Origin: Hyphomicrobiales bacterium
GTDB taxonomy: Bacteria > Pseudomonadota > Alphaproteobacteria > Rhizobiales > Rhizobiaceae
Length of the DNA: 59,447 bases
Direction: 5' to 3'
Assembly (NCBI GenBank): GCA_021775415.1
Contig: JAJFHV010000003.1
Span: 1-59,447 of the forward strand
The notes under the pieces: model-generated
What the model was told of the DNA's origin: nothing
Databases searched by the model: none
Seen by the model: only the letters and a program-made list of their open reading frames with translations
Program-made: the position numbers and the translations under genes
In this document: one piece after another, positions 1,312 to 10,282 of the stretch
Layout of the letters: each line of letters opens with the position of its first letter
How positions within the stretch are numbered: the stretch's first letter is position 1

Positions 1312-1742
1312 TGGTCATTCCCTATTGCGCAATACCAAATCGGCACCGCCAACCCAAACGGCAAATTACAAACAGTAAACCTGGATGGGTGCTGGACTTA
1401 CCCAGAATCGGTAATCTGCTGCAACCTGTGCTGCGACTTTGGTCGAGTTTTGGTAAATTTTGGCTTAACCAATGTTTATACTTGGGCATGACTGAACGAG
1501 ATTCCAGACATGAGATTAAGGCGGTCGACATCTGCCTCACCGTTCTTGTCAGCTTTCAAACCGTCACTACAATCAATCGGCCGATCAAATCATATCAACA
1601 ATTTCGGTAGTATTTCTGGCAAATTTTCGACGTCCACCAGCCAAAAACATCTCCATGTGATTTCAGCTGAAAGAACCCAATAATTGAAATTGCCCAAATA
1701 CTGTGATTAAATATTTTTTCGGGGCTTGTGGGAAACCTCAGC
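1312..1742. other. Intergenic region between divergent kinase and hydrolase cassette
   Basis: This 431-base gap separates the divergently transcribed histidine kinase and the DUF2235 gene, and must hold both promoters. Short reading frames occur on both strands, but none has a ribosome site and a recognisable product. I see no clear operator, tRNA or terminator. The part next to the DUF2235 gene (about 1600-1720) is A+T-rich. Confidence 0.5.
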
Positions 1743-4274
1743 ATGGCGAAAAACATAATTTTGCTTTCGGATGGAACTGGAAACAGCTCTAATGCATTAA
1801 ACAAATCCAACGTCTGGCGGCTGATGCAAGCACTGGACGTTTCTCTCTCCGACAAAAAACACCGAGAGCAACTGGCATTCTACGACAATGGAGTTGGAAC
1901 CAGCGGCCCCATTTTTGTTCAAAAAATTGTGGGGGCATTTGGGTTTGGTCTTTCGAGAAATGTTCGTGATCTTTATGAGCAACTCTGCCGACACTATGAG
2001 CCCGGTGACAAAATATACATTTTCGGCTTCAGCCGCGGTGCCTTTACCGCGCGTGTGCTGGCGCATTTCATAGGGCTTTGCGGTATCCTTGATCGAACCC
2101 GTGACGCTATTAACACAAGTATCTGCGATCAACCTTCCGATCGAAAAATGAGTTCAGATCGGGGGTTAAAAAGCGGCGTCAAGGACGCTTACCGCAGTTA
2201 TCGACAATGGTACTGGGATAACGCAGACCCAACAGCTTCTATTGCAAAATGTGTCCGCAGTTTCTGGTATAAATTCTGGCGTATCAAGGTCGCCACTCCC
2301 GATGGGTTTCGCCAACAAAAGGCGATCAAGCTCAAAAGCACAAAACCTGTAATCTATTTTGTTGGCGTTTGGGATACCGTCGACGCGCTTGGCATGCCGA
2401 TCAAGGAACTGTCCGATGTCATTGACCGCGCGCTGTATCCCTATAAATTTCCAGACCATGTGCTTGGTCCTGACGTTACTTTCGCTCGGCAGGCTCTGGC
2501 AATCGACGAAGCGCGCCACTCATTTACGCCTCTCCCGTGGGATGAGTGCTTGTTTGGTAGCGACAACAAGTTCGAAGGAAAAGTCAGGCTACGTCAGGTC
2601 TGGTTTGCCGGCATGCACTCAGATATCGGGGGTGGTTATCCAGAGGATACACTTGCACTCATCTCTTTGGATTGGATGATCGCAGAGGTTAAGACCCTGG
2701 ACCCGGACAAAGATGGGTTGCGATTTCTCCCTCACGCTGTTGAAGAAATTAAGAAACGTGCCCAGCCTACCGGAAAAATGCACGATTCCCGCAGAGGTTT
2801 CGCAACATTTTATCGTTACAAACCCCGCAGCATGCCTGAATTATGTGGACACAAGGACCCACTGCTTGTCGCCCACTACGCCGCCAAAAAACAAAGGAAA
2901 GAAGATTTTGGCGAAGGCAAATCCGTCAAATATCCCTACATTCCGACACCAATTGTCCACTACTCGGTAATCGACCGCCTGCAACAAAGTATCGTCGGCT
3001 ACGCACCGACCGGGTTTACCAATAAATTCAATGTTTTTCGACCCAATGGAGATGTCAGCGAATTCGGCACATCAAGTGCATTCCCTGAGGAAAAAGAAAT
3101 CGCCAAACAGAAAGAAGCAAGAATAAAAGCGCAAGATCGTGCCGCCGCACACATCTGGTGGCGACGCACCGCATACTTCATAATGCTGATAACCCTGTTC
3201 TTCCTGTTTTTGATACCTCTCTTCTGGCCCTACGATCCAGCACTTACAGAGATATCTCAAGGTTGGCTCTCGTGGCTTGTAGATACTGGAACAACACCGC
3301 TGACTTCCATTCTGCCAGGGATTTTAGCTGGCCCGGTGTCCACTTGGACCAAGGCCTGGGCACAATCGCCCGTTCTGTTTCTTGGCACAGCCATCGTCCT
3401 GTATCTGGAATATCGCTGGAGTACATGGATACAGGGAAATATCCAGCGTGTTTCGGAATTTGGATGGTATCACCTGAGATCAAGTGAGGAACTGCAAAAA
3501 CTGCGATCCAGTAAAAATTGGAAAGAACCACGCATTAACTGGTTCGAGATGCGCGCGCAGAAAATACGAAAACACAAGTTCTGGCACACATTGATGAACT
3601 TCTTGAAAAACTGGGTGCTCCGTATCCTGTTTGTGGTGATCGTTGTGTTGCTCGCATATTTCCTGTCCTCTCGATTGTACTATCATCTGAAAGTAACCCT
3701 GTGGGAATCCGGGGCTTGCGAATATTTGACTGATGGGAACCCAACCCAGTCATTCAGTCACGATAATTGGGTCGTCATAGACATATCAAAACCCTGTACA
3801 GTGACAGACATTCGCCTGGATGAGGGCTTGCAGTACCGGGTCCATCTCCGCCCTGCCAAAGAATTTGGGGCAGGCGAAACTAACGAACCTTCAATCTGTA
3901 CCGAGACACCGCAAAAATCCGAACGGAGTGGCGTCAACTTTGATTGGCTGGATGCTTCACTCGAGGCTTCCCCGAAGGGCTTAAGCTGGATTGATCGTTA
4001 TTTTGACTGGAAATTCTGGGCGGGAGCACCTTACAAGAGACATGTGTTCTCCAACTGGATGTCGCTGATAGGTGAAGTCGGACAAGACAGCGGCAAATAT
4101 GCAGGCCTTGGCAGTAACAAATTGAGGTTCACTGCACCAGGTACGGGTAAACTGCATCTGTACGTGAACGACGCGGTTGCGATTTGGCCCATAACATGGC
4201 TGCGAGCTGCTCCGCGGGATCAATTTTATCAAAATAACAGCGGAAAGATCTGCGTTATGATTCAAAAACTGTGA
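1743..4274 (+). CDS. DUF2235 (Tle1-like) alpha/beta-hydrolase with membrane segments
   Basis: This is an 843-residue protein. The N-terminal half is a DUF2235 domain, the fold of Tle1-type type VI secretion phospholipases. The opening IILLSDGTGN, the nucleophile elbow GFSRGAF (Ser97) and the motif HSDIGGGYPE (His292, Asp294) are visible. Three hydrophobic stretches follow at about residues 477-499, 542-560 and 624-646, then a soluble C-terminal region of about 200 residues that I do not recognise. I chose the ATG at 1743 because GGGAA lies 8 bases before it; an in-frame GTG at 1728 lacks a good site. It is the first gene of a plus-strand set with a peptidoglycan hydrolase and an esterase. Lipid ester hydrolysis at the inner membrane is inferred. 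No VgrG, Hcp or immunity gene is nearby, so a secreted-effector role is unproven. Confidence 0.82.
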   Translation: MAKNIILLSDGTGNSSNALNKSNVWRLMQALDVSLSDKKHREQLAFYDNGVGTSGPIFVQKIVGAFGFGLSRNVRDLYEQLCRHYEPGDKIYIFGFSRGAFTARVLAHFIGLCGILDRTRDAINTSICDQPSDRKMSSDRGLKSGVKDAYRSYRQWYWDNADPTASIAKCVRSFWYKFWRIKVATPDGFRQQKAIKLKSTKPVIYFVGVWDTVDALGMPIKELSDVIDRALYPYKFPDHVLGPDVTFARQALAIDEARHSFTPLPWDECLFGSDNKFEGKVRLRQVWFAGMHSDIGGGYPEDTLALISLDWMIAEVKTLDPDKDGLRFLPHAVEEIKKRAQPTGKMHDSRRGFATFYRYKPRSMPELCGHKDPLLVAHYAAKKQRKEDFGEGKSVKYPYIPTPIVHYSVIDRLQQSIVGYAPTGFTNKFNVFRPNGDVSEFGTSSAFPEEKEIAKQKEARIKAQDRAAAHIWWRRTAYFIMLITLFFLFLIPLFWPYDPALTEISQGWLSWLVDTGTTPLTSILPGILAGPVSTWTKAWAQSPVLFLGTAIVLYLEYRWSTWIQGNIQRVSEFGWYHLRSSEELQKLRSSKNWKEPRINWFEMRAQKIRKHKFWHTLMNFLKNWVLRILFVVIVVLLAYFLSSRLYYHLKVTLWESGACEYLTDGNPTQSFSHDNWVVIDISKPCTVTDIRLDEGLQYRVHLRPAKEFGAGETNEPSICTETPQKSERSGVNFDWLDASLEASPKGLSWIDRYFDWKFWAGAPYKRHVFSNWMSLIGEVGQDSGKYAGLGSNKLRFTAPGTGKLHLYVNDAVAIWPITWLRAAPRDQFYQNNSGKICVMIQKL

Positions 4275-4319: not shown

Positions 4320-5714
4320 TTGAGTTTTCCGTGGATGGACGTTGCGCGTACCCTGAAAGATGTCAGTGAAATCCAGGGTTCTGAGGACAATCCCAGGATT
4401 GTCGAAATGTACCGGCTGTGTGGACACGCGGAAGTCAAGAATGATGAGGTGCCATGGTGTGCAGCTTTTGTCGGCGCAACACTGAAGCTGTCGGGTTACA
4501 AAGGTACCGGAAGCCTGCTTGCACGCTCCTACGAAAAATTTGGCGAGGTCCTCGACAAGCCTGTTGAGGGTTGCCTGGTTGTGCTGTGGCGCAAGTCCAA
4601 AAAATCCGGCAGTGGCCATATCGGATTTTATGCTGGTGAAACTTCAAAGGGCATCCAGATTTTCGGTGGCAATCAAAGCGACAAGGTTAGCGTTCAAACT
4701 TATCCCCGCAATCGCCTGCTGGCGTATGTTCTGCCTGTAAAGACAGATGTGCTGCCTACCGGTTCCATCCTTCCAACCATTTTGGAAGTTAATGCACCAA
4801 ATGCGCCCGCGCATCTGAAGACCGGCCAAAACCCTATGGAGGCAGCCCCCATGCCATCTAACAACGACACCCTCTCCCGCCAATTCTTGTCAATTCATCC
4901 TGCAATCGAAAAATGGGAAGGTGGTTATGTCGACCATCCCAAGGATCCAGGGGGCGCAACCAACATGGGAATTACTCTTGGTACACTTTCGAAGTGGCGC
5001 GGACGTAAAGTTTCAAAGGCAGAGGTGCAAAAACTAACAAGCGCCGAAGCCCGGTTAATTTTCAAGACCTGGTATTTTGACAAGGTGAGCGGAGACCAGT
5101 TACCAGGACCCGTGGCACTTGCAGTTTATAATTCTGGTGTCCTGAGTGGTATTTCCCGGGCTTCAAAATGGTTACAGCAAAGTGTCAATTCCTTTGGCAA
5201 AAACATCGATGTTGATGGCGAAATCGGTCCCGAAACGCTTGGCGCGGTTCGCCAACTTAATCCCCAGGCGCTGGCAAGCGCATATTTTGACCGCTACGAG
5301 AGTTTTCTCAAAGGCCTCGGGACCTGGGGTACGTTTGGTAAGGGTTGGCTTAATCGTCTCAACGACATGCGCAACATTGCACGGTCCCTTCCCGTTTTAC
5401 CGGCGCAAGCACAGCCCACACAGCCAAAACTTGCTTCATCTGCCCCCTCACCTTCCAGCAAATCCCCGCCAGACCTGACGCCGGTGAATGCTGCGCTGGG
5501 TGAAACGATTGGTAAAGTACTGGATGGTCAAAAAACTGGACTTGGTATTCTTGGCCTGCTTGCAACAAATTTGTTGCCAATACTGGCGCCCGAACTGGCC
5601 GGAGCACTTTCAATGACAAGCGAGAACGGTGGTACCGCATGGACCTCCTTGCTTTCTGCGCTGCTTGCTTGGGGTGTGCTTGGCAAGACCGAAAAATGGG
5701 TAAAAGGCAAATGA
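4320..5714 (+). CDS. Bifunctional peptidoglycan hydrolase: TIGR02594-type amidase plus GH108 muramidase
   Basis: This 464-residue protein starts at TTG, chosen because GTGGAGAG lies 7 bases upstream. Residues 1-140 match the TIGR02594/CHAP-like cysteine-hydrolase family, with PWCAAFVG (nucleophilic Cys) and GHIGFYAGE (catalytic His). Residues 190-350 are a glycoside hydrolase 108 lysozyme domain with EGGY (catalytic Glu200), DPGGATNMGIT and a peptidoglycan-binding part containing DGEIGPETLGA. A Pro/Ser-rich linker leads to a hydrophobic C-terminal module (about 385-464) ending in WGVLGKTEKWVKGK. Nearly the same module ends the next protein. There is no signal peptide, so export would need a holin, lysis or a secretion machine. 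Joining an amidase-like and a muramidase domain resembles phage endolysins or type VI effectors. Confidence 0.85.
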   Translation: MSFPWMDVARTLKDVSEIQGSEDNPRIVEMYRLCGHAEVKNDEVPWCAAFVGATLKLSGYKGTGSLLARSYEKFGEVLDKPVEGCLVVLWRKSKKSGSGHIGFYAGETSKGIQIFGGNQSDKVSVQTYPRNRLLAYVLPVKTDVLPTGSILPTILEVNAPNAPAHLKTGQNPMEAAPMPSNNDTLSRQFLSIHPAIEKWEGGYVDHPKDPGGATNMGITLGTLSKWRGRKVSKAEVQKLTSAEARLIFKTWYFDKVSGDQLPGPVALAVYNSGVLSGISRASKWLQQSVNSFGKNIDVDGEIGPETLGAVRQLNPQALASAYFDRYESFLKGLGTWGTFGKGWLNRLNDMRNIARSLPVLPAQAQPTQPKLASSAPSPSSKSPPDLTPVNAALGETIGKVLDGQKTGLGILGLLATNLLPILAPELAGALSMTSENGGTAWTSLLSALLAWGVLGKTEKWVKGK

Positions 5715-5730
5715 ACATGGAGCAAAACAA

Positions 5731-6702
5731 ATGAGGATATATCTTTTCCGCGGATTGTTTGGCGGCGTGTTCTCCAAAGGCATGGATACACTGGCGGAAA
5801 AGCTTGCCAGTCAGGGCCATGTCACATCCGTACACCGCTGGATGGAGAGAGAACTCATTCAGTCGCAAGTGCTGGCGAATTCAGCACTTGCAGGCCCACT
5901 CGCCCTGATTGGCCATTCTCTCGGCGGTAATTCAGCCAATTACATGGCAAATGACCTTACCGATGCGGGTTTGGATGTAGCCTATGTTGCAACAATTGAC
6001 GCGACAGGCCCCAGACCCACGCCGAGCGGTGTGGTGTCCGATAACTTCCGGTCTTCCGATTGGCGTGACAAGGCTGTTCCAGGTGCAAACGAGTTTAATT
6101 TCCCGGACCTCAATCATATTCAAATCGACAAAGCTGACCGGGTTCATCAGCAGATACTGGACAGATGTGGAACCGCAAGCCGACCCAAGCCCGGGTCAGA
6201 GCCCAATGGCACAACAGGAGAAAGTCTAATGGCAAACGATGACACCAGAGCAAGCGGCGTTGGCGATGCGGGCGGCTCGCAGGATAACAACGCAGCGATG
6301 GCTCAAGCCCTTGTAACCCTGCTCACTGCATTAACTTCAAACGGATTTTCGGTGGGAAATCAAACCAGTCCTCCTGCCGCTCCAGCTGCCCTATCAGGAG
6401 ATCCAGAACTAACGCCAATCAATGGCTGGCTTGGAAAGACACTTGGCAAGCCTCTAAATGGAAAAAAAACCGGGATAGGTATTCTCGGTATGTTGTCGGT
6501 TTATCTGCTACCCGCATTGTTCCCGGAGCTTGCGCCGATACAGGCAATATTCAAGTCGCTTGGAGCAACCACCCCTGAACTCGTTGGTGGAGGCTTGCAG
6601 GAGGTGGAAACCGGTAAATCCATACTGACTCCGATTTTTGCCGCACTTGGTGGCTGGGGCATTCTTGGTAAAGTTGAAAAGTGGGTTAAAGGTCGCGGCT
6701 GA
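5731..6702 (+). CDS. Lipase/esterase-like alpha/beta-hydrolase with shared C-terminal hydrophobic module
   Basis: This is a 323-residue protein with a GGAG ribosome site 8 bases before ATG. Residues 1-150 form a compact alpha/beta-hydrolase: the elbow GHSLGG holds Ser63, IDATGP probably carries the acidic residue, and PDLNHIQID holds the likely catalytic His129. A low-complexity linker (about 150-225) follows. The C-terminal module (about 228-323) runs from TPINGWLGKTLGK through KTGIGILGML to WGILGKVEKWVKGRG and matches the tail of the preceding muramidase almost motif for motif. The gene starts 16 bases after the muramidase stop, so co-transcription is likely. The substrate is unknown; thioester, lipid or carboxyl esters are possible. 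The tail looks membrane-inserting or a docking module. Confidence 0.72.
   Translation: MRIYLFRGLFGGVFSKGMDTLAEKLASQGHVTSVHRWMERELIQSQVLANSALAGPLALIGHSLGGNSANYMANDLTDAGLDVAYVATIDATGPRPTPSGVVSDNFRSSDWRDKAVPGANEFNFPDLNHIQIDKADRVHQQILDRCGTASRPKPGSEPNGTTGESLMANDDTRASGVGDAGGSQDNNAAMAQALVTLLTALTSNGFSVGNQTSPPAAPAALSGDPELTPINGWLGKTLGKPLNGKKTGIGILGMLSVYLLPALFPELAPIQAIFKSLGATTPELVGGGLQEVETGKSILTPIFAALGGWGILGKVEKWVKGRG

Positions 6703-8225: not shown

Positions 8226-10282
<2,057 letters not shown>

Follow-up and report, generated by a model that had tools for sequence, protein, structure and literature searches.

The window analyzed here is a 59,447-nucleotide (nt) stretch of genomic DNA from a Hyphomicrobiales bacterium of the family Rhizobiaceae (assembly GCA_021775415.1, contig JAJFHV010000003.1, positions 1 to 59,447). 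Three same-direction genes in the window encode a DUF2235 protein, a muramidase and an alpha/beta-hydrolase of the lipase/esterase type (hereafter the esterase), with intergenic gaps of 45 and 16 nt (Table 1). An earlier note on this DNA, made from its letters without database searches, had observed that the muramidase and the esterase end in the same hydrophobic module, here called the tail. We found that the tail is a distinct sequence family, located C-terminally on enzymes that start with their catalytic domain and carry no N-terminal hydrophobic segment; tentatively, it may be a holin-like membrane module.

Table 1. Features of the tailed-hydrolase operon (positions in the window)
Feature	Position	Strand	Basis
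DUF2235 / Tle1-like protein, two predicted membrane segments	1728..4274	+	Pfam; ends 45 nt before the muramidase open reading frame
Muramidase, signal-less, 464 amino acids: TIGR02594 (residues 4-137), GH108 (196-277), PG_binding_3 (280-347), linker, tail	4320..5714	+	Profile matches
Tail copy 1, muramidase residues 385-464; hydrophobic segments ~408-426 and ~437-455	5472..5711	+	Local alignment, hydropathy
Alpha/beta-hydrolase (GHSLGG), lipase/esterase-like, 323 amino acids, tailed	5731..6702	+	Pfam below cut-off only
Candidate ribosome site AGGAG (8-nt spacing) and in-frame ATG, codon 167 of the esterase	6216..6231	+	Hypothesis
Tail copy 2, esterase residues 228-323; hydrophobic segments ~249-267 and ~295-313	6412..6699	+	Local alignment, hydropathy, model

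Two unrelated hydrolases share a C-terminal tail

The two tails are homologous: their local BLOSUM62 alignment scored 198, whereas 2000 shuffles averaged 32 and reached 62 at most, and they share 55% identity over lengths of 80 and 96 residues. The pattern quoted in the earlier note, placed there at the extreme C-terminus of both hydrolases, is accurate. Its companion claim that the catalytic domains are unrelated also stood, in that the upstream parts scored 37, within the shuffle null (34.5 +/- 5.3, 200 shuffles). The best local DNA alignment spans just the first ~90 bases of the tails, suggesting an old duplication or transfer rather than a recent copy. These are the only two tail copies in their own genome, which is 97% complete.

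The muramidase matched TIGR02594, GH108 and PG_binding_3 with E values of 6e-30, 7e-24 and 1e-9, and an endolysin family, PHROG 315, spans its residues 181-403, touching the first residues of the tail. For the esterase, thioesterase and Abhydrolase Pfam matches around GHSLGG all fell under the cut-off, and a PDB search with its profile returned lipases as top matches (E 0.016). The note had allowed that the tail might prove to be an already described holin domain; no Pfam or PHROGs holin profile matched. Searching 17 tails against Pfam and PHROGs yielded no more than single weak matches, none of them to a family named holin (best E 0.0046 and 0.017); the better of these, PHROG 21855, has no function given and was matched by one of the 17 tails. 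NCBIfam was searched with the whole window proteins.

The tail occurs on wall hydrolases and esterases whose catalytic parts differ

Searches established that the tail is not confined to this gene pair. We collected 26 open reading frames (ORFs) from 23 loci and four from three more, giving 30 carriers in 26 loci, of which 25 are wall-hydrolase-type, four are esterases and one is a deletion remnant; nine carriers were domain-scanned and the remainder assigned by similarity and by eye. The cargo comprises wall hydrolases and one lipase-like enzyme, often beside further lipase-like genes. The tail follows GH108, GH24, GH19, M15 and alpha/beta-hydrolase domains. Matches above the curated cut-off were Phage_lysozyme/GH24 (L012), M15_4 (L034), PG_binding_1 (L037), GH19 (L014), GH108 with PG_binding_3 and VanY (L017) and Abhydrolase_6 (the L014 esterase), while DPBB and CHAP (L015, L016) and GH19 (L034) remained under it.

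Three genomes of the window's genus keep a pair in which a tailed wall hydrolase is followed by a tailed esterase; a fourth sampled genome of the genus gave no tail match. The wall hydrolase of this pair is TIGR02594 plus GH108 in the window (by profile), GH24-type in genus-mate G1023, whose genes are 100% identical to L013, and TIGR02594 plus GH19-type in genus-mate G1091/L056 (by similarity). The same pair occurs outside the genus at L014, where the wall hydrolase is GH19. This operon with apparently swapped wall-hydrolase domains is our best evidence for portability of the tail, and it bears out the proposal that the module was shuffled or duplicated as a tag. A tree of the tails required 16 architecture changes (minimum possible 12, shuffled mean 21), did not reject a single clade for the four esterase tails (p 0.39) and had just 6 of 27 inner branches well supported; because of this poor support, the claim of exchange rests on the operon comparison. 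At the L044 locus edge, an 84-amino-acid (aa) piece of an esterase gene follows the carrier.

One apparent stand-alone tail gene (L033:8054-8690) was rejected as an internal-deletion remnant, since the first 109 residues of related carriers can be matched to a different frame immediately before it. It is counted in the 26- and 30-carrier sets and in the larger tail profiles.

The tail is sparse and mainly found in Hyphomicrobiales

Among 297 same-order genomes, a two-row profile matched nine at E<=0.01, one of them false, and a 26-row profile matched eight at E<=0.001. The 26-row profile also matched 7 of 199 same-family genomes, including one false match (L059) and one half tail only (L044); the order and family counts include the window's own genome. 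With a 17-row profile, the class sample yielded 1 of 385 genomes, the own genome alone, and the phylum sample 3 of 299, all of the same order. A scan of genome contigs gave six loci with the tail. Using a single-sequence query, we retrieved 17 plasmid records (Ensifer 6, Sinorhizobium 5, Methylobacterium 4, Rhizobium 1 and Tateyamaria, of the Rhodobacterales, 1), 12 of which were examined in detail. A single-sequence query with the window esterase tail found no match in 50,697 phage records, and in IMG/VR one contig carried the tail, at the contig end; a phage origin of the tail was rejected on these results. The genome, plasmid and phage counts therefore describe a sparse, mainly Hyphomicrobiales module. 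Two matches dismissed by eye, a permease (L010, E 0.0055) and a cytochrome bd oxidase-like protein (L059), are still inside the search tallies.

The tail is predicted to form a two-helix hairpin

The tail consensus reads LTPVNGALGxTIGxLLNGKKTAIGIIGxLATxLLP, a variable loop, PxFxAxxxWGxLGKxEKW and a basic end. The alignment of 26 relatives has 12 invariant columns (N...G...G..L.G.K...G, then WG..GK..K), and seven Gly columns (16, 20, 25, 31, 34, 106 and 109) are at least 90% conserved, with one pair spaced GxxxG. Two or more segments exceed a Kyte-Doolittle value of 1.0 within the last 130 residues of 24 of the 26 carriers. The loop between the helices has a net charge of zero or below in all 26 (zero in 11), and the C-terminal end is net positive in 25. 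At the other end of the protein, no segment in the first 60 residues exceeds 1.4 in 25 of 26 carriers (a hydropathy cut-off, not a signal-peptide predictor), and by the same measure no signal-arrest-release (SAR) endolysin helix is present at the N-terminus in those 25. An AlphaFold2 model from 17 rows (mean predicted local distance difference test 63, predicted template modeling score 0.33) placed helices at 6-10, 12-16, 23-40, 42-53 and 76-99.

Hydropathy, charges and this low-confidence model agree with the membrane-inserting hairpin with a basic end that had been proposed. The prediction is a hairpin of two weakly hydrophobic helices whose ends both face the cytoplasm, with better support for the C-end than for the N-end. 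Two membrane helices with both termini inside is the class II holin topology; the loop and C-end charges agree with it, the N-side charge in only 17 of 26 carriers.

A candidate internal start precedes the tail in some carriers

The candidate start at esterase codon 167 would yield a 157-aa product consisting of linker and tail. We scanned the 110 codons before each tail for an ATG in frame that has a 5-nt Shine-Dalgarno core 4-10 nt away, and found such a site in 10 of 30 carriers, compared with 5.1 +/- 1.5 under a synonymous-codon null (1 of 500 reached 10). This excess is suggestive only because the rows are related, four of the ten being Sinorhizobium/Rhizobium. Counted per ATG, the region before the tail had sites at 10 of 56 in frame and at 3 of 76 and 0 of 4 in the other frames, and the catalytic part at 10 of 140. 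Ten Sinorhizobium/Ensifer/Rhizobium genes all have GGAGG at this place, followed by ATG in six and GTG in four; synonymous variation in the six codons before that start is 0.07 (three scorable codons) versus a gene mean of 0.39, with 7 of 359 windows as low.

GH108 occurs in 35 of 121 order genomes, and of 29 ORFs read from 30 loci, four have this tail module. By eye we picked two other GH108 tail types in Hyphomicrobiales, 'SLTIWGAIVTAL...GRxRA' (L091, L095-L100, L102 and L104; C-terminal 110 residues) and 'GYKTYI...FLRKG' (L080, L083, L086 and L094). Like the present module they are two-helix-like, C-terminal and mostly accompanied by an internal start; unlike it, they cannot be confidently aligned with it, and hhalign gave probabilities of 1.4% and 0.8%, which do not show homology. 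An ATG/GTG site was present in 7 of 9 (null 2.4, 0 of 500) and 3 of 4 (null 1.2, 2 of 500), respectively. Four tails of the first type that were tested matched PHROG 29088 (no known function) and, weakly, the holin PHROG 962 (E 0.0008 to 0.17). Judging from these sites, the other tails are possibly embedded in-frame holins. Some carriers of the present module may likewise produce the hairpin by itself from an internal start.

Lipase-like genes are frequent neighbors

In a hand-made table of 27 loci (26 loci plus L044, close relatives counted apart), a lipase/esterase-type gene lies close to the tail in 18, although three of these assignments (L022, L031 and L044) are on weak grounds. The neighbors are DUF2235 proteins (9 loci), large membrane-type patatins (6), tailed esterases (5) and other alpha/beta-hydrolases (4). 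DUF2235 exceeded the Pfam cut-off in the window, L028, G079 and G995, the others being assigned by record annotation or BLAST clustering, and the L023 copy is a 157-aa piece only. Patatin was above cut-off in L016, L024, L037 and G294/L034, just under it in G207/L036 and weak in L022 (18.6 bits). Of the alpha/beta-hydrolases, that of L024 was assigned by profile and those of L031, L034 and L036 by eye. DUF2235 is rare, with 0-3 genes per genome in the 13 carrier genomes and a sole match in the window's own genome, and it lies within 5 kb of the tail in three of the 13 versus 0.017 expected (P ~9e-7; the association was noticed before the test).

A further Sinorhizobium neighbor is a ~700-aa protein with an N-terminal membrane helix (L012:2391-4541, L023:6387-8474 and L027:6409-8541). 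It bears the motif CxxHDxCY, seen in L012, which we take to be phospholipase A2-like; proteins with this motif occur in three loci, all of which also have DUF2235. Phospholipase A2 identity was set aside, as the L012 copy gained no Pfam or PDB support.

Beyond the DUF2235 and esterase genes, same-strand genes near the window muramidase look metabolic by eye. No separate set of holin, endolysin and spanin was recognized by eye beside the operon, small membrane ORFs not having been screened. A general Pfam scan of the window proteins showed no PAAR or VgrG domain, no search having been aimed at effector markers.

The tail does not track contractile secretion machines

The type VI secretion system (T6SS) protein VipB is encoded in 4 of 16 carrier genomes and the PF04984 sheath in 2 of 23 carrier genomes or plasmid records, with neither in the window genome. 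The tail thus does not track T6SS or contractile sheaths, the search having covered contractile machines, and an effector-sorting or docking signal tied to such a machine, as the earlier note had envisaged, is not supported; the cargo is also narrow. Ten of the 12 carrier plasmids examined are typed in PLSDB as MPF_T, a type IV secretion system type. On plasmid pB of E. adhaerens NER9, an extracellular contractile injection system (eCIS) cluster (L074:1449-29096; sheath, tube, AAA, eCIS_core, gp25 and baseplate J) closely precedes a tailed lysozyme and DUF2235; a single 251-aa ORF on the opposite strand separates it from them.

Comparison with known systems

Endolysins with a C-terminal membrane domain are already known from phages. 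M4Lys requires its C-terminal membrane domain and, on overproduction, lyses E. coli without holin or Sec by a route that is unknown; the membrane domain by itself is bacteriostatic (PMC7143992, PMC8943055). Like Enc34 ORF39 and M4Lys, the carriers combine a signal-less wall hydrolase with a C-terminal two-helix membrane domain, here by prediction. Homology of the tail to M4Lys was sought and not found (hhalign probability 0.1%, in a comparison that covered M4Lys and not Enc34). Phage endolysins of this type have a PHA02564 catalytic domain, whereas other catalytic families occur here, and they are encoded by phages rather than by chromosomes or megaplasmids; the authors of M4Lys, moreover, predicted the N-side of its membrane domain to be periplasmic.

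TtsA, an enzyme of the type 10 secretion systems, is GH108. In these systems (TtsA; ChiW/X; YenLC) bacteria likewise use endolysin-type enzymes for export or lysis, but in those described, holin, endolysin and spanins are encoded separately. A natural holin-endolysin fusion, TpeE of Clostridium sporogenes, likewise joins both functions in one polypeptide (PMC9527704); its holin is N-terminal and attached to a single enzyme, whereas the tail here is C-terminal and follows several enzyme families. Two-polypeptide endolysins made from in-frame internal starts have been surveyed in phages of Gram-positive bacteria (PMC9430671) and resemble the present case in having a single gene with two in-frame products; the authors of the survey regard such starts as improbable in endolysins of Gram-negative phages, and the short product here would be a membrane hairpin. 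Among the papers listed in literature searches, which covered open as opposed to subscription literature, no title or abstract opening describes this tail module. What appears to be new is the tail family, its portability between enzyme classes, one of them lipase-like, and the lipase-rich bacterial context.

A possible envelope-lysis cassette

We tentatively favor, at slightly less than even chances, a reading of the tail as a holin-like membrane module, specific to this lineage, that is joined to envelope hydrolases which are themselves signal-less. The considerations that we count for it are the family and its cargo, the charges, the Gly columns, the genus operon, the proximity of DUF2235, the internal starts and the M4Lys precedent. 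From these we infer the topology, a pore or flipping, lysis and the esterase substrate. Two weakly hydrophobic, Gly-rich helices would form a hairpin in the inner membrane, its two ends remaining cytoplasmic, and oligomerize. Upon sufficient accumulation, or upon disturbance of the bilayer by a neighboring phospholipase-like enzyme, the assembly would pass the attached domain to the periplasm, where the wall would be cut, while the esterase would act on lipids or esters; free hairpins from an internal start could perhaps serve as partners in some carriers. The operon would then be a compact envelope-lysis cassette uniting holin and endolysin in one polypeptide, and the tail set looks like a self-lysis cassette because of its phospholipase-type neighbors and tailed esterase.

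A fuller proposal, which we regard as unlikely, is a bacterial, non-phage lysis system whose holin is a portable C-terminal tail on wall hydrolases and a lipase-like enzyme; an internal start would add free hairpin, the enzymes would jointly attack wall and lipid layers, and catalytic parts would be swapped while tail and operon are kept.

Several points weigh against the holin-like reading. The net charge of the 31-residue stretch leading up to helix 1 is positive in 17 of 26 carriers, zero in seven and negative in two, so that placing the N-terminal side inside depends on the invariant Lys rather than on net charge, and L022 and L031 have one segment over Kyte-Doolittle 1.0 in the last 130 residues; these charges and the two one-segment carriers lower our confidence. 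The hydrophobicity of the tail is modest, its structural model is of low confidence and no holin profile of Pfam or PHROGs recognizes it. A GH24-type carrier, L044:265-1587, retains the second half of the tail only (the WGxxGKxEKW part). Nine of the 27 loci, two of them near-copies (L026 and L029), have no lipase-like neighbor. The scan found no internal ribosome site in the window muramidase. As with Enc34, there is no explanation of how a C-terminal hairpin could move a folded domain at the N-terminus, and the proposed function is a prediction from sequence.

The strongest alternative, itself doubtful, is that the tail is a plain membrane anchor that makes no lesion of its own and keeps the enzymes on the inner membrane, or inactive, until a phage holin, a phospholipase or cell death breaks the membrane. 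The weak hydrophobicity and charge pattern would suit such an anchor, and lipase-like neighbors could break the membrane; the strict Gly/Lys/Trp pattern with its 12 invariant columns, however, is more than a simple anchor needs, and the internal starts, should they be genuine, point to a use for the hairpin by itself.

We consider it improbable that the enzymes are inter-bacterial or host-directed effectors and that the tail is a translocation or sorting domain carrying them into target cells. The Pfam name of DUF2235, T6SS_Tle1-like_cat, points in that direction, as do the conserved GxxxG, the NER9 pB eCIS upstream of a tailed enzyme and DUF2235, the MPF_T typing of carrier plasmids and the glycine zipper of the T6SS effector Tde1 (PMC10240207). 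That zipper is N-terminal, however, whereas the tail is C-terminal; VipB and PF04984 are infrequent among carriers and missing from the window genome, and the cargo, with several carriers assigned by eye, is narrow. A holin-like anchor or self-translocation tail fits better than an effector-sorting signal. Very improbably, the carriers are degraded or domesticated prophage endolysins with drifting C-terminal remnants: GH108, GH24 and GH19 are endolysin-type families and L033 is a deletion remnant, but the motifs are invariant over divergent carriers, the operon is retained in genus-mates, and the phage collections gave one IMG/VR contig end and, for the window esterase tail used as a single-sequence query, nothing in 50,697 phage records.

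If the holin-like reading is true, the domain family would give a predicted function to genes of rhizobial megaplasmids that are called 'lysozyme' or 'hypothetical', and its many natural variants would make export of an N-terminal folded enzyme by a C-terminal membrane domain testable. That wall hydrolases are linked to DUF2235, patatin and further lipase-like proteins where a genome lacks T6SS points to self-lysis cassettes in Alphaproteobacteria.

Additional observations

PADLOC, run on 10 proteins, gave no match for the window genes and one caspase match in an S. meliloti neighbor. On S. meliloti pSymA (L023:12097-15196), caspase-family and pYEATS genes stand in a row downstream of the tailed lysozyme. 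On NER9 pB, the eCIS_core protein (8543-10219) has a Tlde1-type domain match of 28.0 bits, under the 30.1 cut-off, and ~5.6 kb past the tailed lysozyme the record lists a predicted AAC(3) gene (L074:38002-38814; 73% identity).

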